A stretch of DNA of 64,000 nucleotides, taken from NCBI RefSeq assembly GCF_014359905.1, contig NZ_JACIYP010000011.1, positions 1-64,000 of the forward strand. The letters run 5' to 3'. Position numbers and translations under genes: made by a program. The notes under the pieces are model-generated. The model worked only from the letters and a program-made list of their open reading frames with translations. It made no database searches and had not been told where the DNA came from. This DNA is from Hoeflea sp. Its GTDB lineage: Bacteria; Pseudomonadota; Alphaproteobacteria; Rhizobiales; Rhizobiaceae. Shown here one piece after another: positions 14,162 to 24,748 of the stretch; the first letter of the stretch is position 1, and the number at the start of each line of letters is the position of its first letter.

Positions 14162-15244
14162 TCAGAGCCTGAGTTCCGTCGCCGCGTCGAAGATCGAGGC
14201 GCGGGCCGGGTCAAACCCGATGCGCACCGTCTCGCCCGCGCGCAATTCGCTCTGGCCATCGACACGGAAGCGGAATTCCCTGCCGTCGAGAATGGCCCAG
14301 ACCAGCGTGTCGGCGCCCATCGGCTCGACCACCTCGATCTCGACCTCGGCGCTGAAAGGCTCGCTGGCAACGGCGGGTCCGCAGCTCACATGTTCCGGCC
14401 TGATCCCGAAGACCACCTTGCCCGGCCGCTCGTCGCCCGAGAAGGGATAGCGGCCGAGCGGGACGGTCGTCGCGCCGAAATTCAGCGCAGCCTCGCTGTG
14501 ATGCGTGACCTCGCCTTCGAGGAAATTCATGCCCGGCGAGCCCATGAAGCCCGCAACATAGAGATTGATCGGGCGATTGTAGATCTCATGGGGGGTCGCC
14601 AGCTGCTGGATGATGCCGTTGCGCATGATGGCGATGCGGTCGGCCAGCGTCAGCGCCTCGATCTGGTCATGCGTCACATAGATCATGGTGTTCTTGAGCC
14701 TGTGATGCAGCCGCTTGATCTCCACCCTCAGCTCGGCGCGCAGCTTGGCGTCGAGATTGGACAAGGGCTCGTCGAACAGGAACACGTCGACATCGCGCAC
14801 CAGCGCGCGGCCGATTGCGACGCGCTGGCGCTGGCCGCCCGACAATTGCGCCGGCTTGCGCTTGAGCAGCGGCTCGATCTGCAGCACTTCGGCGGCGCGG
14901 GCGACCTTTTTGGCGATCTCGTCCTTCGGCACCCGGGCATTCTTGAGCCCGAACGCCAGATTGCCCTCCACCGTCATCTGCGGATAGAGCGCGTAGGACT
15001 GGAACACCATGCCGATGCCGCGGTCCTTGGGCTCTTCCCAGGTGACGTTCTTGTCCTTGATGAAGATCTGGCCTTCGGAGATATCGAGCAGCCCGGCGAT
15101 GCAATTGAGCAGGGTCGACTTGCCGCAGCCCGATGGCCCCAGCAGCACCAGGAACTCGCCGTCCTCAATGTCGAGATTGAGAGTCTTGAGAACCTTCACC
15201 TCTCCGAAATTCAGGCACAGGTCCTTGATCGATACGCTGGTCAT
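14162..15244 (-). CDS. Sugar ABC transporter ATP-binding protein (UgpC/MsmK type)
   Basis: 360 aa from MTSVSIKDLCLNFG; the longer frame upstream is out of phase with the permease and is not used. Walker A is GPSGCGKSTLL, the signature is [16 protein letters not shown], and Walker B is VFLFDEPLSNLDAK, with an H-loop YVTHDQIEAL. The C-terminal OB-fold (TOBE) regulatory domain contains FGIRPEHVS. This is the carbohydrate CUT1 ATPase group. It starts 2 bases after the stop of the inner permease and energises uptake by the two permeases and the binding protein of the operon. Confidence 0.93.
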   Translation of the reverse strand: MTSVSIKDLCLNFGEVKVLKTLNLDIEDGEFLVLLGPSGCGKSTLLNCIAGLLDISEGQIFIKDKNVTWEEPKDRGIGMVFQSYALYPQMTVEGNLAFGLKNARVPKDEIAKKVARAAEVLQIEPLLKRKPAQLSGGQRQRVAIGRALVRDVDVFLFDEPLSNLDAKLRAELRVEIKRLHHRLKNTMIYVTHDQIEALTLADRIAIMRNGIIQQLATPHEIYNRPINLYVAGFMGSPGMNFLEGEVTHHSEAALNFGATTVPLGRYPFSGDERPGKVVFGIRPEHVSCGPAVASEPFSAEVEIEVVEPMGADTLVWAILDGREFRFRVDGQSELRAGETVRIGFDPARASIFDAATELRL

Positions 15245-15246
15245 TG

Positions 15247-16182
15247 TCAGCCTTTCACCGCGCCCGCGGCGATGCCGCGCACGAAAAGTTTGCCGGATAT
15301 GAAATAGATGATCAGGGGCACGAGCCCGGTGATGATGGTTGCCGCCATGTTGACATTGTATTCCTTGACCCCCTGCACCGAGTTGACGATGTTGTTGAGC
15401 TGCACCGTCATCGGGTAGACATTGGGCTTGGTGTAGACCACGCCGAACAGGAAATCGTTCCAGATGCCGGTGATCTGGATGATCATGGCGACCACGAAGA
15501 TCGGCAGGCTCATCGGCAGCATGATCTTGAAATAGATCCCCCAGAACCCGGCCCCGTCGACGCGCGCCGCCTTGAACAGCTCCTCCGGCACGGTCGAGAA
15601 ATAGTTCCGGAACAGAAGCGTCAGGATCGGCATGCCGAAGATGGTGTGTACCAGGATCAGGCCCCACAGGGTGCCGTAGATGCCCAGTTCCCTGAGCAGG
15701 ATCACCATCGGATAGAGCATCACCTGGTAGGGGATGAAAGCGCCGAAGATCAGGATGGTGAAGAAGGTGTTGGCGCCCTTGAAGCGCCAGTTGGCCAGCG
15801 CATAGCCGTTCACCGAGGCAATCGCGATCGACAGGATCACCGAGGGAATGGTGATCCTGACCGAATTCCAGAAGCCGCGGGAAAGGCCTTCGCAGTTGAG
15901 CCCTGTGCAGGCCGTCGCCCAGGCCTTGACCCAGGGCTCGAAGGTGATCTCCACCGGCGGGGCGAAGATGTTGCCGAGCCGGATTTCGGGCATGCCCTTC
16001 AAGGAGGTCACGATCATCACATAGAGCGGCAGCAGATAGTAGATCGAGACCAGCAGCAGGGTGCCGTAGACGAAGATGTTGCGCCGCGAGAATTTGCGTT
16101 TGGGTTTGGCGCCCCAAGGTTCCCTGTCCAGCGGGCCCGGCTTGAAGCCGACGGCGACCGCGTCGCTGGTTGCGTCAGCCAT
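15247..16182 (-). CDS. Sugar ABC transporter permease (MalG-like)
   Basis: 311 aa. It has about six membrane spans, the first near residues 32-53. The EAA-type cytoplasmic loop around FKAARVDGAGFWGIYFKIM contacts the ATPase. This is the MalG-type half of a CUT1 sugar importer. The start overlaps the preceding permease stop by 8 bases (16175-16182), and the ATPase gene follows after 2 bases. Confidence 0.9.
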   Translation of the reverse strand: MADATSDAVAVGFKPGPLDREPWGAKPKRKFSRRNIFVYGTLLLVSIYYLLPLYVMIVTSLKGMPEIRLGNIFAPPVEITFEPWVKAWATACTGLNCEGLSRGFWNSVRITIPSVILSIAIASVNGYALANWRFKGANTFFTILIFGAFIPYQVMLYPMVILLRELGIYGTLWGLILVHTIFGMPILTLLFRNYFSTVPEELFKAARVDGAGFWGIYFKIMLPMSLPIFVVAMIIQITGIWNDFLFGVVYTKPNVYPMTVQLNNIVNSVQGVKEYNVNMAATIITGLVPLIIYFISGKLFVRGIAAGAVKG

Positions 16183-17086
16183 GGCGGCGTCCTCCGAACT
16201 CGAGATAGGCCCAGGGGATGAGCACGATGAGAACCGCCAGCAGCATCATCGTAGACCCGGCGAAGCCCTGGCCGAGATTCTGCGACAGGAACATGGCGTC
16301 GTAGACATATTTGGCAGGCACTTCGGAGGCGACGCCGGGGCCGCCCGAGGTCTGGGCCACCACCAGGTCGTAGAGCTTGACGATGCCCGAGGCGATCAGC
16401 ACCAGGGTGGTGATGAACACCGGGCGCATCATCGGAATGATGATGAAGAGATAGGTTTTCCAGGTCGGGATGCCGTCGACCCGGGCCGCCTTCCAGATGT
16501 CCTCGTCGATGCCGCGCAGACCCGCGAGCATCAGGCACATGATCAGCCCCGTGCCCTGCCAGAGACCGGCGATCAGGATGCCGTAGATCACGAAGTTCTG
16601 GCTGTTGAGCGGATCGAAGGAAAAGCTCTCCCATCCCATCGAGCGCACCGTCTTCTGGATGCCGAAATCCGGATTGAGGATCCATTGCCAGACGAGGCCG
16701 GTGACGATGAAGGACAGGGCGAAGGGATAGAGCAGGATCGTCCGGAAGGTGTTCTCGAAGCGGATCTTCTGGTCCAGCAGGGCGGCCAGGACGAAGCCGA
16801 TGATCAGCGAGAAGATCAGCGAGCAGACGCCGTAGATCAGCAGATTCTCGATGGCGATCAGCCATTTCGAGCTCGACCAGAGGCGGTCATACTGGTCGAG
16901 GCCGACGAAATTCGCCCGCGGCAGCAGTTTGGAATTGGTGAACGAGTAGACCATCGTCCAGACCGTCCCGCCCAGGAACACCACCAGCGCGGTCAGGATC
17001 ATCGGAATCGCGGCGATCTTGGCCGCCATGTTGCGAAACAGGCGCCCGGGCCGCTTGCCCTGGGCGGAAATCTGAGTGGTGGTCAT
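16175..17086 (-). CDS. Sugar ABC transporter permease (MalF-like)
   Basis: 303 aa from MTTTQISAQGKRPG, chosen because a GGAGG ribosome-binding site lies 8 bases upstream and the upstream extension runs through a hairpin. About six membrane spans are predicted, with the EAA loop at IWKAARVDGIPTWKTYLFI. It pairs with the MalG-like permease. A perfect 12-bp hairpin separates it from the binding-protein gene upstream, which would let the membrane components be made in smaller amounts than the binding protein. Confidence 0.9.
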   Translation of the reverse strand: MTTTQISAQGKRPGRLFRNMAAKIAAIPMILTALVVFLGGTVWTMVYSFTNSKLLPRANFVGLDQYDRLWSSSKWLIAIENLLIYGVCSLIFSLIIGFVLAALLDQKIRFENTFRTILLYPFALSFIVTGLVWQWILNPDFGIQKTVRSMGWESFSFDPLNSQNFVIYGILIAGLWQGTGLIMCLMLAGLRGIDEDIWKAARVDGIPTWKTYLFIIIPMMRPVFITTLVLIASGIVKLYDLVVAQTSGGPGVASEVPAKYVYDAMFLSQNLGQGFAGSTMMLLAVLIVLIPWAYLEFGGRRHG

Positions 17087-17108
17087 TGTCGGCCTCCGTG
17101 GAGCTGAG

Positions 17109-17139
17109 GGCCACCGGCGCGCATGCGGCGCCGGTGGCC
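17109..17139 (-). terminator. Intra-operon hairpin between binding-protein and permease genes
   Basis: A perfect 12-bp inverted repeat (17109-17120 with 17128-17139, 7-base loop) sits in the 67-base gap between the binding-protein stop and the permease start. No U-run follows, so it is better read as an RNA-stabilising or attenuating stem-loop than as a full terminator. Confidence 0.6.
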
Positions 17140-17153
17140 GGATCACGAACTGA

Positions 17154-18386
17154 TCAGTCAGCTTGTTCCACGATCGCGGCGTAGCGTGTCTGCGCATCTT
17201 CCGGCGTGATCGACTTGTCGTTCAGGAACTCGACCATGAGATCGTTGAACTGGGTCTGGGTGTCGGCCGAGAAGACCATGTCGCCGGATGGCAGCAGGTT
17301 ACCGGTCTTGAGAATATCCAGGCCCTTCTTCATGCAGTCGTTCGCCGCGGCGAGATCGATGTCGCCGCGGATCGGCAGCGAGCCTTTCTTCAGGTTGAAG
17401 GCGACCTGAGCCTCCTTCGAGATCATCATCGACGCCAGTTCAAACTGTGCCGCGGTCTTTTCCGGATCGTCGAGCTTGGGGAAGTAGAAGGCGTCGCCGC
17501 CGGTCGAGAGATATTCGTGGTTGCCCAGGCCCGGAAGGCAGGAATAATCCTCGCCCGCCGCCTGATTGGCGACCTGGAACTCGCCCTGAGCCCAGTCGCC
17601 CATGATCTGGCCGCCGGCGGCGCCGGTGATGACCATGTTGGTGGCCTGGTTCCAGTCCTGCACATTGGAGCCCTCGGCCATGTCGCGGGCATCGGCCATG
17701 GCCTGGAACACCTTGGCCATTTCGGGGCCCTTGGCAGCCTCCACGTCCTTCTCGATGTTGATCTGCTTCCACAGGTCCAGCCCGCCGACGCCGATCTGCA
17801 CGGCGCCGAACAGCAGGTTGGACTGCCAGGGCTGCTGGCCGAGCGCCAGCGGCTGGATGCCGGCTTCGCGCAGCTTGGGTGCTGCGGCGACGAATTCATC
17901 CCAGTTGGTGGGAACCGGCACGCCGGCCTTTTCGTAAGCCGCGTGCGACAGCCACAGCCATTGCGGCGAGTGGATGTTCACGGGTACGCAGTAGATCCTG
18001 CCATCGAGCGTGCAGCTGTCGAGCAGGCTGGGCGGATTGACGATGTCCTTCCAGCCTTCCTTCTCGGCCAGTTCGGTCAAATCGAGCATCAGCCCGGCCT
18101 CGACCAGCTCTTCCGCCTGGCGGCCATGATTGAACTGCGTGGCGGCCATCGGGTCGCCGCCGGTGATGCGCGAGATCATTACGGGCCGCGCGGTGCCGCC
18201 ACCGCCGGCGATGGCGCCGTCGACCCATTTGTTGCCGGTGGCGTCAAAGGCCTTGGCGAATTCCGCCACCGCAGCGGCTTCGCCGCCCGAGGTCCACCAG
18301 TGGGTGACTTCAAGATCGACAGCCTTGGCGGATGTCGAAAGCGCCAGCAGCGATGCGCCAGCCAGAATATGCTTGAAAATGCTCAT
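17154..18386 (-). CDS. Sugar ABC transporter substrate-binding protein (CUT1)
   Basis: 410 aa from MSIFKHILAGASLL, preceded by GGGAGGG about 8 bases upstream. Residues 1-22 form a signal peptide ending in AKA, so the protein is periplasmic. The start of the mature domain, VDLEVTHWWTSGGEA, and the GDWAQGEF segment are typical of family 1 sugar-binding proteins. It is the first gene of the LacI-controlled operon and presumably binds xylosides or xylo-oligosaccharides, an inference from the GH43 enzyme encoded downstream. Confidence 0.92.
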   Translation of the reverse strand: MSIFKHILAGASLLALSTSAKAVDLEVTHWWTSGGEAAAVAEFAKAFDATGNKWVDGAIAGGGGTARPVMISRITGGDPMAATQFNHGRQAEELVEAGLMLDLTELAEKEGWKDIVNPPSLLDSCTLDGRIYCVPVNIHSPQWLWLSHAAYEKAGVPVPTNWDEFVAAAPKLREAGIQPLALGQQPWQSNLLFGAVQIGVGGLDLWKQINIEKDVEAAKGPEMAKVFQAMADARDMAEGSNVQDWNQATNMVITGAAGGQIMGDWAQGEFQVANQAAGEDYSCLPGLGNHEYLSTGGDAFYFPKLDDPEKTAAQFELASMMISKEAQVAFNLKKGSLPIRGDIDLAAANDCMKKGLDILKTGNLLPSGDMVFSADTQTQFNDLMVEFLNDKSITPEDAQTRYAAIVEQAD

Positions 18387-18472
18387 CGATTTCCCTCCCA
18401 GGAACGTTCCTCCTCCCGGTCCCGCCGCACTCCCGCAACGTCCCGGGTCCACCGGTGCCCTCACACCCTTTA

Positions 18473-18516
18473 AATCGATTACATGGCGCCAAATGCTGCG
18501 CTGCAATCGATTACAT
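18473..18516. promoter_or_regulatory. Paired LacI-type operators in the divergent promoter region
   Basis: The 12-mer AATCGATTACAT occurs twice, at 18473-18484 and 18505-18516. The repeats are 32 bp apart, about three helical turns. The second sits in a good palindrome, TGCAATCGATTACA. Both have the central CG of LacI/GalR-family operators. They lie between the sugar operon and the divergent lacI-type gene, so the repressor encoded there probably binds both and controls both directions. Confidence 0.7.
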
Positions 18517-18605
18517 AAAGGTTGACCGCGAAGGGAATTGGAGTCAAGTGATATTTGCCGGTGGCGTCTCAGCGCCGTTTCGGGCTACTGGGAATGCAGA
18601 CTGTC

Positions 18606-19631
18606 ATGGAACAAAAATCGCCGAGGATCACCGATGTCGCCAAGCTTGCAGGCGTGTCGACCGCGACAGTCAGCCGGGCGCTGAGCAAGCCCGAAACCGT
18701 CGCGGAGTCAACGCGGATAGCGGTTCTCGCGGCGGCCGAGCAGACCGGCTACCGGGTCAATCTCTCGGCCCGCAATCTCAGGCGGCAGCGCACCGGCGCC
18801 ATCGTCGTCCTGGTGCCGAACCTCGGCAATCCGTTTTTCTCCGAAATCCTGGCCGGCATCGAGACCGCGCTGTCGCACGCCGATTTCAACATGCTGGTCG
18901 TCGACACGCGGCAGGCCTACATGAAGCCGCAACTGGTGTCGGAATATCTGCACGCGACGCGGGCCGACGGCATCATCGCGCTCGACGGATCGCTGCCGGA
19001 TTCGGTGTTGACCGCGGCCAGTTCCGGCGCCGGCGCGCCGCCGGTGATCTTTGCCTGCGAGTGGACGCCGCATGACCGGTTTCCCTCCGTGCGGGTCAAC
19101 AATGCCCGCGGCGCCGAACTGGCGATCTCGCATCTGGCCGGTCTCGGTCATCGCAGGATCGGCATGATCGCCGGGCCTGAGGACAATGTGCTGACCGGCG
19201 CCCGGACCCGCGGCGCGACGGATGGGCTCGCCGGCCTTGGCCTGGAGCTCGATCCGGCGCATCTGTTTGCCGGCGATTTCAGCCTCGAGGCCGGCGCCCG
19301 CGCGGGCCTCGCCTGGCTCGCCCTGAAGGACCGTCCCAGCGCCGTGTTCTGCCAGTCCGACCAGATGGCCTTCGGCTTTATCTCGGAACTCGCCCGGCAT
19401 GGCGTGTCGGTTCCCGGCGATGTCTCGGTGGTGGGATTTGACGACATCAACATCGCCCGCCGCTTCATTCCGGCGCTGACCACGCTCAGGCAGCCGCGCA
19501 CCCGGATCGGCGGCGCGGCGGCGGAACTGCTCATCAGCCATATCCAGGCAAGCTCGATCCTGGCGGTCGAAACCAAGGTGCTCGAGGTCGAACTTATGGT
19601 GCGCGACAGCACCCGCGCCATTGCGGCTTGA
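18606..19631 (+). CDS. LacI family transcriptional regulator
   Basis: 341 aa from MEQKSPRITDVA. Earlier in-frame starts at 18555 and 18594 exist but add residues not expected in the family. The helix-turn-helix is ITDVAKLAGVSTATVSRAL at residues 8-26, followed by the hinge-region NLSARNLRRQRTG and a periplasmic-binding-protein-like sensor domain (VVLVPNLGNPFFSEI, VVGFDDINIARRF). It is divergent from the sugar operon across two operator-like palindromes. It probably represses that operon and is released by a xylose- or xyloside-derived inducer; the inducer is inferred. Confidence 0.92.
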   Translation: MEQKSPRITDVAKLAGVSTATVSRALSKPETVAESTRIAVLAAAEQTGYRVNLSARNLRRQRTGAIVVLVPNLGNPFFSEILAGIETALSHADFNMLVVDTRQAYMKPQLVSEYLHATRADGIIALDGSLPDSVLTAASSGAGAPPVIFACEWTPHDRFPSVRVNNARGAELAISHLAGLGHRRIGMIAGPEDNVLTGARTRGATDGLAGLGLELDPAHLFAGDFSLEAGARAGLAWLALKDRPSAVFCQSDQMAFGFISELARHGVSVPGDVSVVGFDDINIARRFIPALTTLRQPRTRIGGAAAELLISHIQASSILAVETKVLEVELMVRDSTRAIAA

Positions 19632-19667
19632 AACATTCCCAGGGTTCATTTATATAAGAGTTATTAA

Positions 19668-20033
19668 ATGTTCACGGAATGGACCACGTCTCTGATTGGA
19701 ACCCCGGCCATGCTTGACGCCCACGACATGCTTGAAATGGAGCCGCGCATGAGCGAAGCGGCCAAACTGATGGAGATGCTGTCCCAGCCGGTGCGGCTGC
19801 GCATTCTCTGCATCCTGCTCGACGGCGAAAACAGCGTTCTCAAGCTCGCCGACATGGCCGGCCTGTCGCAGCCGGCAATGTCGCACCATCTGCGCAAGCT
19901 GCGCGACGCCGACCTGGTCACCACGCGGCGCGATGCCCAGACCATCTATTATTCGCTCAAGGGCAAGGAGGTCGCCGCCGTGCTGGAGGTGCTGCACGGC
20001 CTCTATTGCAGTCCCGGCCAGAAGCCCGCCTGA
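19668..20033 (+). CDS. ArsR family regulator with SqrR/BigR-type cysteine pair
   Basis: 121 aa. The winged helix-turn-helix has the recognition region LADMAGLSQPAMSHHLRKL (60-78). There is no ELCVCDL metal-binding motif of the ArsR/SmtB metal sensors. Instead the only two cysteines are C48 (RILCIL, helix 2) and C114 (HGLYC, C-terminal helix), 66 residues apart. That matches the placement and spacing of the C41/C107 pair of the persulfide sensor SqrR and its relative BigR, as I recall it. The start at 19668 follows an AT-rich stretch and a weak AAGAG site; 19710 is an alternative. The gene lies 203 bases upstream of the soeABC-like operon on the same strand, and so is a likely regulator of it. 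Confidence 0.82.
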   Translation: MFTEWTTSLIGTPAMLDAHDMLEMEPRMSEAAKLMEMLSQPVRLRILCILLDGENSVLKLADMAGLSQPAMSHHLRKLRDADLVTTRRDAQTIYYSLKGKEVAAVLEVLHGLYCSPGQKPA

Positions 20034-20046
20034 ACCGCCGACCCGC

Positions 20047-20085
20047 CCTCTAAGGCCAGTCGATCCGCCCATCTGGCCTTAGAGG
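20047..20085. promoter_or_regulatory. Perfect 13-bp inverted repeat between the ArsR-type regulator and soeA
   Basis: CCTCTAAGGCCAG at 20047-20059 is exactly complementary to 20073-20085, with a 13-base loop, starting 13 bases after the regulator stop. No T-run follows, so it is a poor intrinsic terminator by sequence. It could be an attenuator, a Rho-type stop hairpin or an operator. Two TTGACA hexamers follow at 20113-20118 and 20141-20146, without a convincing -10 element. Confidence 0.45.
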
Positions 20086-20236
20086 AAGGCAAGCTGGATA
20101 TAGCCGCCGGCCTTGACATTTGCCTGGCCGGAGGGTCCGTTTGACATTCATGCCGCCTGGGAGGGGTGCTGCAGCATTGCAGGACAAGGCACGGAGTGGC
20201 CCGCATGCAAGCGCTACAGGCAAGTCGGGGGAATGA

Positions 20237-23077
20237 ATGAAGCAGACCAACGGGCCACACGAGGCGGCAGACGGCCCGACCGGGATCCGCAAGACCACCT
20301 GCTACATGTGCGCCTGCCGCTGCGGCATCGATGTCCATCTGAAGGACGGCAAGGTCCATTACATCGAGGGCAACCGCGACCACCCGATCAACAAGGGCGT
20401 GCTCTGCGCCAAGGGATCGGCCGGCATCATGCAGCATTATTCGCCGGCGCGGCTGAGAAAGCCGCTGCTCAGGACCGGCGAGCGCGGCTCGGGCGAATTC
20501 CGGGAAATCGAATGGGACGAGGCGCTGGGGCTCGCCACCGAATGGCTGGGCGCGGTGCGCCGCAGCGATCCGCGCAAGCTCGCCTTCTTCACCGGCCGCG
20601 ACCAGAGCCAGTCGACGACCGGCTGGTGGGCGCAGCAATACGGCACGCCCAACTATGCCGCCCATGGCGGCTTCTGCTCGGTCAACATGGCCGCCGCCGG
20701 CATCTACACGATGGGCGGCGCGTTCTGGGAATTCGGCGCGCCGGACTGGGACAGGACCGAACTGTTCATGATCTTCGGCGTCGCCGAGGATCATGATTCC
20801 AACCCGATCAAGATGGGGCTCGGCAAGCTAAAGGCGCGCGGCGTCAAGGTGATCGGCGTCAACCCGGTGCGCACCGGCTACAACGCCATCGCCGACGAAT
20901 GGCTCGGCATCACGCCGGGCACCGACGGGCTTCTGATCCTTGCGCTGGTGCACGAACTCTTGCGCACCGGCAAGATCGATGTCGATTATCTGATCCGCTA
21001 CACCAATGCCCCCTGGCTGGTGATCGACGATCCCGACGGCGCCGGGCACGGCCTGTTCGCCCGCGACGAGGACGGGACCCCGCTGGTGGCGAGCCGCGGC
21101 ACGGGCGAGATCGCCTCCTCGGCCACGCCGGGGATCAAACCGGCGCTCAAGGGCAGTTACGAGCTCCCGGACGGCCGCCGGGCTACGCCGGTATTCGAAT
21201 TGTTAGCCGGCAAATATATTTCACCCGACTATGCCCCTGCCGCGGTTGCCGATCGCACCGGCATCGAGGCTTCGACCATCATCCGCATCGCCGCAGAAAT
21301 CGCCGACGCCGCCTTCGAGCGCGAAATCACCGTCGAGCAGCCCTGGACCGACATGAAGGGCGAGCGCCACGACCGCATGATCGGCCGGCCGGTGGCGTTC
21401 CACGCCATGCGCGGCATCTCGGCCCATTCCAACGGTTTCCAGACGGCCCGCGCCCTGCACATGCTGCAGATCCTGGTGGGCTCGATCGACTGCCCCGGCG
21501 GTTTCCGCTTCAAGCCGCCCTATCCGCGCCCGGTCGCGGGACAGCCCCGCCCGCATGGCGGCGCCTGCGCCGACACGGCGCTCGCCGGCCCGCATCTGGG
21601 GTATCCGCGTGGACCCGAGGACCTGCTGCTCGAAGCCGACGGCGAGACCGCGCAGCGCATCGACAAGGCGTTTTCCTGGGATGCGCCTTTGTCGGCGCAT
21701 GGGCTGATGCACATGGTCATCTCCAATGCGCATGCGCGCGACCCCTACGGCATCGACGTCTTGTTCATGTACATGGCCAACATGGCCTGGAACTCGTCGA
21801 TGAACTCGACGTCGGTGATGAAGATGCTGACCGACAAGGACGCGGCCGGCGAGTATGTGATCCCGAAGATCATCTATTCCGACGCCTATTCCTCCGAGAT
21901 GGTGGCGTTCGCCGACCTGATCCTGCCCGACACCACCTATCTCGAGCGGCACGACTGCATCTCGCTTCTTGACCGGCCGATCAGCGAGCCCGGGGCGATG
22001 TGCGATTCGATCCGCTGGCCGGTGGTCGAGCCCGACCGCGACGTGCGCGGCTTCCAGAGCGTGCTGCTCGATCTCGGCGCCCGGCTCAAGCTCCCCGGCA
22101 TGACCGATGCCGAGGGCAAACCGGTCTATCGCGACTACGCCGACTACATGGTCAACCACCAGCGCAAGCCGGGCATCGGCCCGCTGTCGGGCTGGCGCGG
22201 CGCCGACGGCTCCAAGACCGGGCGCGGCGAGCCCAATCCCGACCAGCTCCAGCGCTACATCGACAATGGCGGGTTTTCCGAGGCGCATGTGCCGGCGGAA
22301 GCGCTCTATTTCAAGCACGCCAACCGCGCCTGGAGCGACTGGGCGATCGCGCAGGGGCTTCAGGACGGGCCGGTCGAGAACATCTTCCAGCTCTATCTCG
22401 AGCCCCTGCGCAAGTTCCAGCTCGCCGCCGAAGGCCGGATCAAGCCGCAACCGCCGGAACATCACCGCGCGCGGATCGGGACCTGTTTCGATCCGCTGCC
22501 CGTCTGGTATCCGCCCTTTGCCGACGACGGACTTGCGGACGAGGCCTTCCCGCTGCACGCCATCACCCAGCGCCCCGCCGCGATGTATCATTCCTGGGGC
22601 TCGCAGAACGCCTGGCTCAGGCAGATCCACGGCGAGAACGCGCTCTATGTGCCGGGCGCGGTCTGCGACCGGGCCGGGCTCGAGGACGGCGACTGGGCGC
22701 TCTTGACCTCACCCTCGGGCGAGATCCGCGCGCCAATCCGGCGCATGGACGCCGTCAACGGCTCCACGGTCTGGACCTGGAACGCCATCGGCAAGCGTTC
22801 GGGCGCCTGGGCGCTCGACACGGACGCGCCGGAGGCGACCCGCGGCTTCCTGCTCAACCACCTGATCGACGAGCTTCTGCCCCCGAAGGGCGACGGCCGC
22901 CGCTGGGCCAATTCCGATCCGATCACCGGCCAGGCCGCCTGGTTCGACCTGCGCGTGTCGATCCGCAAGGATCCAGACCAGTCGGGCGGCGAGAGCCTGC
23001 CGCGCGCGAAGCCCCAGAAAAACCCGGTCGGCGCGGCGCCCTCCACCGTCAGCCACGGGCGGGAGCGCGCCCAATGA
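20237..23077 (+). CDS. soeA: Molybdopterin oxidoreductase, probable sulfite dehydrogenase catalytic subunit
   Basis: 946 aa. The N-terminal [4Fe-4S] site is C22-x2-C25-x3-C29-x27-C57, followed by the bis-MGD catalytic domains; C147 in GGFCSVN sits where the Mo ligand is expected. There is no twin-arginine leader, so it stays in the cytoplasm. Size, absence of a Tat signal and the following four-cluster ferredoxin and DmsC-type anchor match SoeABC, the cytoplasm-facing enzyme that oxidises sulfite to sulfate and passes electrons to the quinone pool. Other complex iron-sulfur molybdoenzymes cannot be excluded. A GGGGG ribosome-binding site lies 5 bases before the ATG. The stop overlaps the soeB start (ATGA). 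Confidence 0.78.
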   Translation: MKQTNGPHEAADGPTGIRKTTCYMCACRCGIDVHLKDGKVHYIEGNRDHPINKGVLCAKGSAGIMQHYSPARLRKPLLRTGERGSGEFREIEWDEALGLATEWLGAVRRSDPRKLAFFTGRDQSQSTTGWWAQQYGTPNYAAHGGFCSVNMAAAGIYTMGGAFWEFGAPDWDRTELFMIFGVAEDHDSNPIKMGLGKLKARGVKVIGVNPVRTGYNAIADEWLGITPGTDGLLILALVHELLRTGKIDVDYLIRYTNAPWLVIDDPDGAGHGLFARDEDGTPLVASRGTGEIASSATPGIKPALKGSYELPDGRRATPVFELLAGKYISPDYAPAAVADRTGIEASTIIRIAAEIADAAFEREITVEQPWTDMKGERHDRMIGRPVAFHAMRGISAHSNGFQTARALHMLQILVGSIDCPGGFRFKPPYPRPVAGQPRPHGGACADTALAGPHLGYPRGPEDLLLEADGETAQRIDKAFSWDAPLSAHGLMHMVISNAHARDPYGIDVLFMYMANMAWNSSMNSTSVMKMLTDKDAAGEYVIPKIIYSDAYSSEMVAFADLILPDTTYLERHDCISLLDRPISEPGAMCDSIRWPVVEPDRDVRGFQSVLLDLGARLKLPGMTDAEGKPVYRDYADYMVNHQRKPGIGPLSGWRGADGSKTGRGEPNPDQLQRYIDNGGFSEAHVPAEALYFKHANRAWSDWAIAQGLQDGPVENIFQLYLEPLRKFQLAAEGRIKPQPPEHHRARIGTCFDPLPVWYPPFADDGLADEAFPLHAITQRPAAMYHSWGSQNAWLRQIHGENALYVPGAVCDRAGLEDGDWALLTSPSGEIRAPIRRMDAVNGSTVWTWNAIGKRSGAWALDTDAPEATRGFLLNHLIDELLPPKGDGRRWANSDPITGQAAWFDLRVSIRKDPDQSGGESLPRAKPQKNPVGAAPSTVSHGRERAQ

Positions 23078-23832
23078 CCAGTCTTCCCGCCACCACAGAA
23101 AAACGCCTCGGCCTCGTCATCGATCTCGACACCTGCGTCGGCTGCCACGCCTGCGCGGTCAACTGCAAGGAATGGAACTCCGGCGCGCAGGCCTCGCCGC
23201 TGTCGGATGTCGACGCCTATGGCGCCGATCCCTCCGGCGCCTGGCTCAACCGGATCCACACCTTCGAGGTGACGCCCGCCGACGCCCCGGCGCAGATCGT
23301 GCATTTCCCCAAGTCTTGCCTGCACTGCGACGACGCGCCCTGCGTCACCGTCTGCCCCACCGGGGCCAGCCACAAGCGGAGCGAGGACGGCATCGTGCTG
23401 GTGACCGAAGACCTGTGCATCGGCTGCGGGCTCTGCGCCTGGGCCTGCCCCTATGGCGCGCGCGAGATGGACCCGGTCGAGAACGTGATGAAGAAATGCA
23501 CGCTCTGCGTCGACCGGATCTATAGCGACACGCTTCCCGAGGAAGACCGGATCCCCGCCTGCGTGCGCACCTGCCCGTCGAGCGCCCGGCATTTCGGCGA
23601 TTTCAACGATCCCGAATCCAATGTCTCGGTTCTCGTCGCCGAGCGCGGCGGCATCGACCTGATGCCGGAAATGGGCACGGGTCCCGTCAACAAATACCTG
23701 CCGCCACGGCCCAAGACCAATCCCCAGTCCCGTACCCGGCCCGCCCCGGCGGCCGCATCCTCCTGCGCCGCAACGCCGAAAGCCGACGGCTTCCTGGGCT
23801 GGCTCGACGCAGCGCTCGACAGGCTCGGATAA
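23074..23832 (+). CDS. soeB: Four-cluster 4Fe-4S ferredoxin subunit (DmsB/SoeB type)
   Basis: 252 aa from the ATG overlapping the soeA stop. Cysteine groups are seen at DLDTCVGCHACAVNC, CLHCDDAPCVTVCP, CIGCGLCAWACP and CTLCVDRI with PACVRTCP, which supply four [4Fe-4S] clusters as in DmsB/NrfC/PsrB. It carries electrons from the molybdenum subunit to the membrane anchor. No signal peptide. A Pro/Ala-rich C-terminal tail follows residue 210. It lies between the catalytic and anchor genes, with only 4 bases to the latter. Confidence 0.85.
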   Translation: MTSLPATTEKRLGLVIDLDTCVGCHACAVNCKEWNSGAQASPLSDVDAYGADPSGAWLNRIHTFEVTPADAPAQIVHFPKSCLHCDDAPCVTVCPTGASHKRSEDGIVLVTEDLCIGCGLCAWACPYGAREMDPVENVMKKCTLCVDRIYSDTLPEEDRIPACVRTCPSSARHFGDFNDPESNVSVLVAERGGIDLMPEMGTGPVNKYLPPRPKTNPQSRTRPAPAAASSCAATPKADGFLGWLDAALDRLG

Positions 23833-23836
23833 TCCC

Positions 23837-24748
23837 ATGCACCCTGCCGTCTCCGTCATCTTCTTCACGGTCTCCTCGGGCGCGGGCTTCGGGCTGATCT
23901 TTCTCCTGGGCCTCGGATTTCCGGTGGGCGAGGGCGCGGGGCACGCGTTTTTGGTCTCGCTCATCGGCGGCGGCCTGGCGGTCGCCGGCCTGCTCGCCTC
24001 CACCTTCCATCTCGGCCATCCCGAGCGGGCCTGGCGGGCCTTGAGCCAGTGGCGCTCGAGCTGGCTGTCGCGCGAGGGCATCGCCGCGGTTCTCACCCTG
24101 TCTCTGTTCGGCCTCTATGCGCTCGTCTGGATGCTGACCGGCGCGCGGCCGATGCTGCTGGGGCTCCTGGCCGCGCTCGGCGCCGCCGCCACGGTGTTCA
24201 CCACAGCGATGATCTACGCCCAGCTCAGGACCGTGCCGCAGTGGAAGACGCCGCTCACGCCTGCGGTCTATCTCGGCTTTTCGCTGAGCTCGGGCTGGCT
24301 TCTCGCGTCGGGCCTGGGCAATCACGCCGGCCCCGAGGTCTGGGGCATCGCGCTGGTGATCCTCGCCTGGTTCGCCAAATGGGTCTGGTGGGCGCGCGCC
24401 GGCCGCGCCCGGCTGTCGGACTCCGGCTCCTCGCCTGAAACCGCGACCGGGCTCGGGTTCATCGGCAAGGTGCGGCTGCTGGAACGCCCGCATTCCGGCG
24501 AGAACTATCTCACCCGCGAGATGGTGCATGTGATCGGCCGCAAGCATGCCCGCATACTGCGCGGTCTGGCGTTGCTTCTGGGCGCAGCCGTACCTGTCGC
24601 GGTCCTGACGATCACCGCGCTCACCGGCGCGCCGGCGCTGCTCAATCTCCTGGCCGCCCTGTCGATGCTCGCAGGCCTGCTGGCCGAACGCTGGCTGTTC
24701 TTCGCCGAAGCCGAGCACGCCGTGTCGCTGTACTACGGCAACCGCTGA
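23837..24748 (+). CDS. soeC: DmsC-like membrane anchor subunit
   Basis: 303 aa. About eight transmembrane helices are predicted, beginning at residue 5. The segment ASTFHLGHPERAWRAL near residues 55-70 is the DmsC family signature, and WLSREGI follows. It anchors the two soluble subunits on the cytoplasmic face of the membrane and should reduce or use the quinone pool. It is the last gene of the soe-like operon and is convergent with the TRAP transporter, the stops being 16 bases apart. Confidence 0.82.
   Translation: MHPAVSVIFFTVSSGAGFGLIFLLGLGFPVGEGAGHAFLVSLIGGGLAVAGLLASTFHLGHPERAWRALSQWRSSWLSREGIAAVLTLSLFGLYALVWMLTGARPMLLGLLAALGAAATVFTTAMIYAQLRTVPQWKTPLTPAVYLGFSLSSGWLLASGLGNHAGPEVWGIALVILAWFAKWVWWARAGRARLSDSGSSPETATGLGFIGKVRLLERPHSGENYLTREMVHVIGRKHARILRGLALLLGAAVPVAVLTITALTGAPALLNLLAALSMLAGLLAERWLFFAEAEHAVSLYYGNR

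Follow-up and report, generated by a model that had tools for sequence, protein, structure and literature searches.

What is a gene for a putative sensor of reactive sulfur doing immediately in front of the genes for a sulfite-oxidizing enzyme? Such an arrangement occurs in a 64,000-nucleotide stretch of a Hoeflea sp. genome (assembly GCF_014359905.1, contig NZ_JACIYP010000011.1, positions 1 to 64,000; hereafter, the window), where a two-cysteine regulator of the ArsR family is encoded upstream of three genes that resemble those of the sulfite dehydrogenase SoeABC. An initial annotation, made from the sequence alone, proposed that reactive sulfur species directly switch on soeABC as the next step in the oxidation of inorganic sulfur. 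Here, we argue for a different wiring, to which we assign, as a whole, a probability of about 0.5: soeABC would be driven by the taurine regulator TauR, and the sensor gene, relocated and autorepressed, would add read-through transcription from its own promoter.

The window belongs to Hoeflea (Rhizobiaceae), and the closest named relatives of its SoeA come from Hoeflea sp. M_23 (91%) and Hoeflea sp. YIM 152468 (86%). The source assembly, split into 552 contigs, totals 6.86 Mb and is 8.3% contaminated, and we therefore relied on cleaner relatives. The comparison set comprised 18 Hoeflea genomes, the source genome among them, and the 17 soe loci beyond the window were read directly. A wider survey covered 165 SoeA loci (162 distinct), of which 85 had been sampled evenly across the order and 80, the best of more than 591, were named loci; this survey is a sample rather than a census, and additional SoeA loci drawn from the phylum served the tree only.

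The predicted cytoplasmic sulfite dehydrogenase of Hoeflea is encoded on the + strand by soeA (20237-23077), a molybdopterin catalytic subunit without a Tat leader that was assigned by profiles, alignment and tree; soeB (23074-23832), a ferredoxin-type iron-sulfur subunit, for which Fer4_11 is above its cut-off; and soeC (23837-24748), a DmsC-type membrane anchor (PF04976, 63.3 bits; cut-off, 22.3). The N-terminus of SoeA reads MKQTNGPHEAADG and contains no twin-arginine leader, and frames and profiles together give a leaderless molybdopterin subunit with an Fe4S4 domain, an iron-sulfur subunit and a DmsC-type anchor, which is the make-up of SoeABC. The top NCBIfam model for SoeA is PhsA, far under its cut-off (185 of 694 bits), and the soeB product matches NrfC-, DmsB- and DsrO-like models, all under their cut-offs. 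Alignment pairs C147 of SoeA with cysteine 173 of the PsrA chain, a position that we take to be the molybdenum ligand. Among the matches listed, the SoeA homologues stand out as a group of 50-94% identity, with the remainder, SoeA fragments aside, at 36% or less. In a 32-row tree, 21 SoeA-like rows, two Ruegeria species among them, lie on one side of a 100/99 branch, and PhsA, Arx/Psr-like proteins, DmsA, FdnG and the Hoeflea paralogues lie outside it; the SoeA labels in this tree were assigned by likeness to the window sequence and by the tauR-xsc context in Ruegeria, with the SoeA proteins of A. vinosum and Ruegeria pomeroyi left out, and the outgroup branches are long. The initial annotation had described a leaderless molybdoenzyme with DmsB- and DmsC-like partners 203 bases downstream of the regulator and had likened it to SoeABC, and the placement with the Ruegeria proteins bears this out. 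In R. pomeroyi, SPO3557-3559 encode SoeC, SoeB and SoeA, with pta at SPO3560 and tauR at SPO3562 (PMC4334477). Within the fetched stretches of our survey, soeA is accompanied by xsc, by a tauR-like gene (scoring 200 bits or more against the Hoeflea MocR-type gene described below) or by both at 42 of the 80 named loci and 13 of the 85 order loci, and the annotation of an Azospirillum plasmid lists the three subunits, one hypothetical gene and then xsc.

The main clue to the control of soeABC comes from the gap between the regulator gene and soeA. When this gap was aligned across the 18 Hoeflea genomes, the conserved block consisted of two CTGG-type units 21 bp apart, followed by CTTGAC and GGTCCGTTTG. 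In the window, the two units, CTGGCCTTAG (20073-20082) and CTGGATATAG (20094-20103), make up a tandem TauR-type box at 20073-20103 on the + strand, which was recovered by a matrix scan; CTTGAC (20112-20117) and GGTCCGTTTG (20134-20143) form the conserved core at 20112-20143 (+), delineated by the footprint over the 18 genomes and interpreted here as the putative soeA promoter. The published TauR consensus is CTGGACYTAA, arranged in direct repeats (PMC5320631). We built a TauR matrix from 58 units of the Hoeflea tpa and xsc promoters, leaving soe out, and scanned periods of 21-23. TauR-type boxes are present in 14 of 16 tpa promoters, with a period of 23, and in 15 of 16 xsc promoters, with a period of 22. 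By this matrix, none of the 383,814 positions scored across the window outranks the soeA box, which also comes first at 17 of the 18 Hoeflea soe loci, where the tandem repeats are of a degenerate CTGGACYTAA type. It appears quite probable that TauR binds and activates the soeA promoter.

This reading fits the metabolic background. Xsc frees sulfite from taurine, acetyl phosphate being its other product. The enzyme is found above the curated cut-off in 17 of the 18 Hoeflea genomes, the exception being 75% complete. A MocR-type gene sits between xsc and an aminotransferase gene that we call tpa by context, its product scoring just under the cut-off of the best model (464.8 of 488). The xsc-MocR gene-tpa cluster (locus L356, G000:C223, and its relatives) is separate from soeABC: of the 12 genomes that carry the two on a single contig, 11 have them 56-83 kb apart, and the twelfth (G301) about 490 kb. 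Given the TauR-type box at soeA and the presence of Xsc in 17 of 18 genomes, soeABC of Hoeflea appears to serve taurine breakdown by disposing of the sulfite.

Several observations weigh against the assignment to TauR. The MocR-type gene clears the NCBIfam cut-off for PdxR (359.4 of 320 bits), and its TauR name comes from context. One Hoeflea soe locus (L278) lacks a convincing box (rank 7), and the box of the genus strays from the consensus, with CTGG retained and the rest variable. The soeA period of 21 differs from the 22 or 23 of the taurine promoters and was admitted to the scan after being seen in soe. Outside Hoeflea, boxes immediately upstream of soeA are only mildly enriched: with a matrix whose position 5 had been manually set to take A or C, a score of 14 was reached at 8 of 158 loci versus 8 of 790 random stretches, and a score of 18 at 2 of 158 versus 4 of 790. 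A scan upstream of soeA for the strict TauR consensus gave matches at 7 of 163 loci, including the Hoeflea locus L126, versus 15 of 1630 random stretches. The exact pattern is too strict for the genus, with a single match in the 18 Hoeflea genomes, at soeA of G304. Because the signal outside Hoeflea is weak, we restrict the claim of a TauR box to Hoeflea; its rarity elsewhere fits a location of soeA within longer transcription units, yet weakens any general claim.

A perfect 10-bp inverted repeat at 20050-20082 (CTAAGGCCAG / CTGGCCTTAG) was considered as an attenuator or operator and rejected, being absent from the aligned Hoeflea relatives; in the window, it overlaps the first TauR-type unit.

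What, then, is the regulator? The open reading frame from ATG 19668 (19668-20033, +) encodes 121 amino acids with C48 and C114 as the only cysteines, 66 residues apart, as the initial annotation had it. The translation start is probably ATG 19710 (feature 19710-20033; 107 amino acids; C34/C100), because the frame from the earlier ATG meets a stop in two Hoeflea loci, L125 and L126, and conservation begins at the later ATG. The ArsR domain is recognized by PF01022 (54.7 bits; cut-off, 22) and NF033788 (89.9; cut-off, 55). With 81.5 of 155 bits, the protein falls below the cut-off of the NCBIfam equivalog model for BigR and is no BigR equivalog. The closest solved chains are HlyU (1.3e-21), BigR 3pqj (7.5e-18), YgaV (6e-16), NolR (7.4e-16) and the 6o8l-6o8o group (1.7e-14), within which 6O8N is SqrR (PMC9774590). 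The likeness to SqrR and BigR noted initially is supported, both cysteines falling in the cysteine columns of HlyU and BigR; the single-sequence structure prediction was too poor for use (mean pLDDT, 58.8). The pair is kept in the window regulator and in all 17 other Hoeflea rows, nine of which have one extra C-terminal cysteine. The profile, alignment and conservation evidence makes the protein a likely SqrR/BigR-like two-cysteine sulfane-sulfur repressor and, as such, a putative sensor.

The regulator might instead respond to another signal, such as redox state or sulfite, and relay it to soeABC. The neighbouring enzyme consumes sulfite, and the text of the NCBIfam model NF040642 calls BigR sulfite-sensing, a wording that may be a slip, given that the BigR paper calls the protein a sulfide sensor. 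BigR is inactivated by H2S and polysulfides (PMC5823870), and SoxR of H. denitrificans is unaffected by sulfite (PMC10451225). We regard a signal of this kind as very improbable and continue with the putative sensor of sulfane sulfur.

The relatives of the regulator point to a different genomic home. At 12 extended loci outside Hoeflea that carry orthologues (59-80% identity), a YeeE pair is adjacent in nine, with the gene for a sulfur dioxygenase (pdo) visible in six of these nine, and none of the 12 includes soe genes. The remaining three (L438, L439 and L440), from one genus of Rhizobiaceae and, at 75-80%, the closest orthologues beyond Hoeflea, adjoin ackA, without pdo or soe; by eye, L438 also lies near a phosphotransacetylase-like gene. 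Hoeflea itself has a yeeE-yeeE-pdo operon, unlinked to soe; a pdo gene (66-70% identity) is present in 16 of the 18 genomes, the other two being 75-77% complete. At three Hoeflea pdo loci with 1.5-kb flanks, no ArsR gene was found among the picked frames. SoxB, above its cut-off in 16 of 18 genomes, suggests that Hoeflea also processes inorganic sulfur.

Upstream of the regulator gene, we recognized by eye a candidate promoter at 19628-19657 (+), with TTGAAA (19628-19633) and TATATA (19651-19656) separated by 17 nucleotides. The -10 element lies within the palindrome TTATATAA (19650-19657), and the -35 element overlaps the stop codon of a LacI-type gene. TTGAA and TTATATA are kept in all 18 Hoeflea genomes, and the full TTATATAA in 17. 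An automatic sigma-70 scan with stricter rules reported no promoter in 19500-20400. A shared block, CTTGAATAT ... TTATATATA, is present at 14 of the 15 pdo loci scanned (of 16, L377 having been left out; L388 lacks the block), and from 14 Hoeflea pdo promoters we constructed a pdo matrix. This matrix picks out CGTGAACATTTAATAACTCTTATATAA at 19647-19676 (-), an element weakly like the yeeE-pdo promoters and a candidate auto-operator. At 13 of the 17 other Hoeflea soe loci, its top match falls at the regulator promoter; matrices with permuted columns gave a mean of 1.96 such loci, and 1 of 200 reached 13. The mean best score at the regulator promoter is 7.33, compared with -2.17 (sd 2.14) for permuted matrices, none of 200 scoring as high, and the mean best score at the soeA promoter is -3.29.

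The proposed kinship of the regulator and pdo promoters has to be set against several caveats. The likeness is weak, with best matches of 4.7-12.3 at the 17 soe loci and 32-42 at the training sites; in the window itself, the element scores 2.5-4.2 and ranks 3-5. Column permutation loses the order of AT runs. Moreover, four of the loci with SoxR-type ArsR paralogues (L283, L287, L290 and L292), with soxB nearby in all four genomes, score 12.1-18.9 with the same matrix. As these loci outscore those of the regulator, the pdo-type element does not single out the window regulator, and an operator shared by the family, or the SoxR-type paralogue, may explain it.

The paralogue at L283 (4092-4520) and L287 carries a tryptophan (MILWLL) in place of the expected first sensing cysteine, and the pdo-element match at the locus of this tryptophan-bearing protein is stronger than at the window regulator. 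By eye, the L283 paralogue adjoins CcdA-, thioredoxin- and YeeE-like genes. In the window, the region upstream of the regulator (14162-19631) contains, by eye, a sugar-type ABC transporter set with the LacI-family regulator; most other Hoeflea, L278 excepted, have sequence that aligns with the end of this LacI-type frame.

Is the regulator, then, functionally tied to soeABC at all? In each of the 18 Hoeflea genomes, the two genes are neighbours in the same direction; 16 of these loci also show soeB and soeC, and contig ends cut off the other two. In the fetched stretches, no regulator-like protein was found at any of the 160 distinct non-Hoeflea SoeA loci, 153 of which extend at least 1.5 kb upstream, and within the survey such a protein occurs solely at the two Hoeflea loci, L125 and L126. 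The adjacency is beyond chance. The possibility that TauR alone governs soeABC, with the sensor gene as a passenger that acts on itself and, in trans, on pdo, seems doubtful but deserves consideration: the regulator and soeA each have their own conserved promoter-like block, the pdo-type element is absent at soeA, and the gap between the genes measures 203 bases in the window, the distance from the regulator stop to the first cysteine motif of SoeA ranging from 223 to 380 bases across the 18 genomes. However, the pairing has been kept in every genome even though neither the length nor the sequence of the gap is constant, a pattern suggestive of selection for adjacency or co-transcription, and a + strand scan between the regulator and soeA found no terminator-like site, which leaves room for read-through from the regulator promoter. 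The odds that derepression of this promoter feeds soeABC are, in our estimate, about even.

Direct control, as originally proposed, would have the regulator bind the soeA promoter and reactive sulfur species relieve the repression. The conserved adjacency and the paired cysteines are compatible with it, such regulators often act on nearby genes (PMC12423496), and the operators of the SqrR/BigR family are variable enough to leave room for a cryptic site. Nonetheless, we consider direct control unlikely. No exact ATTC-N8-GAAT, the operator motif that had already been sought in vain, occurs in 19400-20400, the closest match there having one mismatch, at 20223, and overlapping the soeA start; nor was a persulfide-type operator found upstream of soeA. 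Conservation is seen at a different element, which is AT-rich. The TauR-type box and the -35 element account for the conserved footprint upstream of soeA, and the pdo-type element averages about -3.3 there. The suggested link between regulator and soeABC thus survives as a conserved pairing, but its interpretation as direct induction by reactive sulfur in an inorganic pathway is not supported. As the switch region of soeA looks taurine-responsive, control of soeABC by the sensor is probably indirect, amounting at most to read-through.

The reading that we favour, TauR-driven soeABC with an added contribution from the sensor, would work as follows. TauR would activate the soeA promoter, and the sulfite released from taurine by Xsc would be oxidized to sulfate. 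The two-cysteine sulfane-sulfur repressor would hold its own, separate promoter and perhaps that of pdo as well; reactive sulfur would open the regulator promoter, and read-through would supplement soeABC. Both routes would yield cytoplasmic sulfite, via Xsc from taurine and via the persulfide dioxygenase from sulfide. The regulator gene would have been relocated in Hoeflea from a yeeE-pdo operon to soeABC, with the operon, bearing a related promoter element, staying elsewhere. We infer the sensing of persulfide, the binding to the regulator and pdo promoters, and the gene move. Cast as a two-input sulfite node, in which a TauR promoter is joined by a sensor gene that moved in the Hoeflea ancestor and is read through when persulfide rises, the scheme is put forward tentatively, at somewhat less than even odds.

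If correct, this would be, as far as we know, the first instance in which the gene for a sulfane-sulfur repressor has been recruited to sulfite oxidation. Sulfite from organosulfonates and from inorganic sulfide, sources that are usually studied separately, would meet at one enzyme and one locus; a sensor gene would have been relocated, with its likely former partner operon still present elsewhere in the genome; and SoeABC would gain a testable regulatory role. In the open-access literature, searched by titles and the beginnings of abstracts, no sulfane-sulfur ArsR regulator of soeABC was found, in line with the earlier remark that sulfite oxidation is not a usual target of these sensors; subscription journals were mostly uncovered, so this negative is weak evidence of novelty. 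TauR and soeABC are treated together in PMC4334477. What is new is how known parts are wired together, a combination that is conserved within a single genus.

Each part of the arrangement has a known counterpart. With the repressors SqrR, BigR, YgaV, HlyU, SoxR and sHdrR, the Hoeflea regulator shares the ArsR domain, cysteines 66 residues apart and, through its orthologues in nearby genera, a usual location by yeeE and pdo; it differs in preceding soeABC and in missing the BigR equivalog cut-off. The targets named for such regulators in the relevant text section of PMC12423496 are sqr, sox, pdo, rhd, shdr, RND, TauE and YeeE, and soe is not named in that section. Hoeflea SoeA falls in a clade with Ruegeria species other than R. 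pomeroyi, and the enzymes of Hoeflea and R. pomeroyi share the three kinds of subunit and, as predicted for Hoeflea, the link to TauR; R. pomeroyi soeABC is near pta and tauR, whereas that of Hoeflea is apart from the taurine cluster, behind an ArsR gene. As in the TauR regulon of Rhodobacter capsulatus, CTGG-type units repeated directly in tandem, at a spacing of two helical turns, precede soeA, tpa and xsc in Hoeflea, although the soeA period is 21. Some Rhodobacterales include bisC, dmsC and hybA in their TauR regulons, where these genes have been read as a possible electron acceptor for TauXY (PMC5320631); we would instead equate them with soeABC, and the Hoeflea arrangement, if confirmed, would suggest a sulfite dehydrogenase as their product. 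Finally, the bigR operon of Agrobacterium and Xylella likewise combines a two-cysteine ArsR protein with a sulfur dioxygenase whose product is sulfite, but exports that sulfite (PMC5823870), whereas the Hoeflea regulator adjoins a predicted sulfite dehydrogenase instead.

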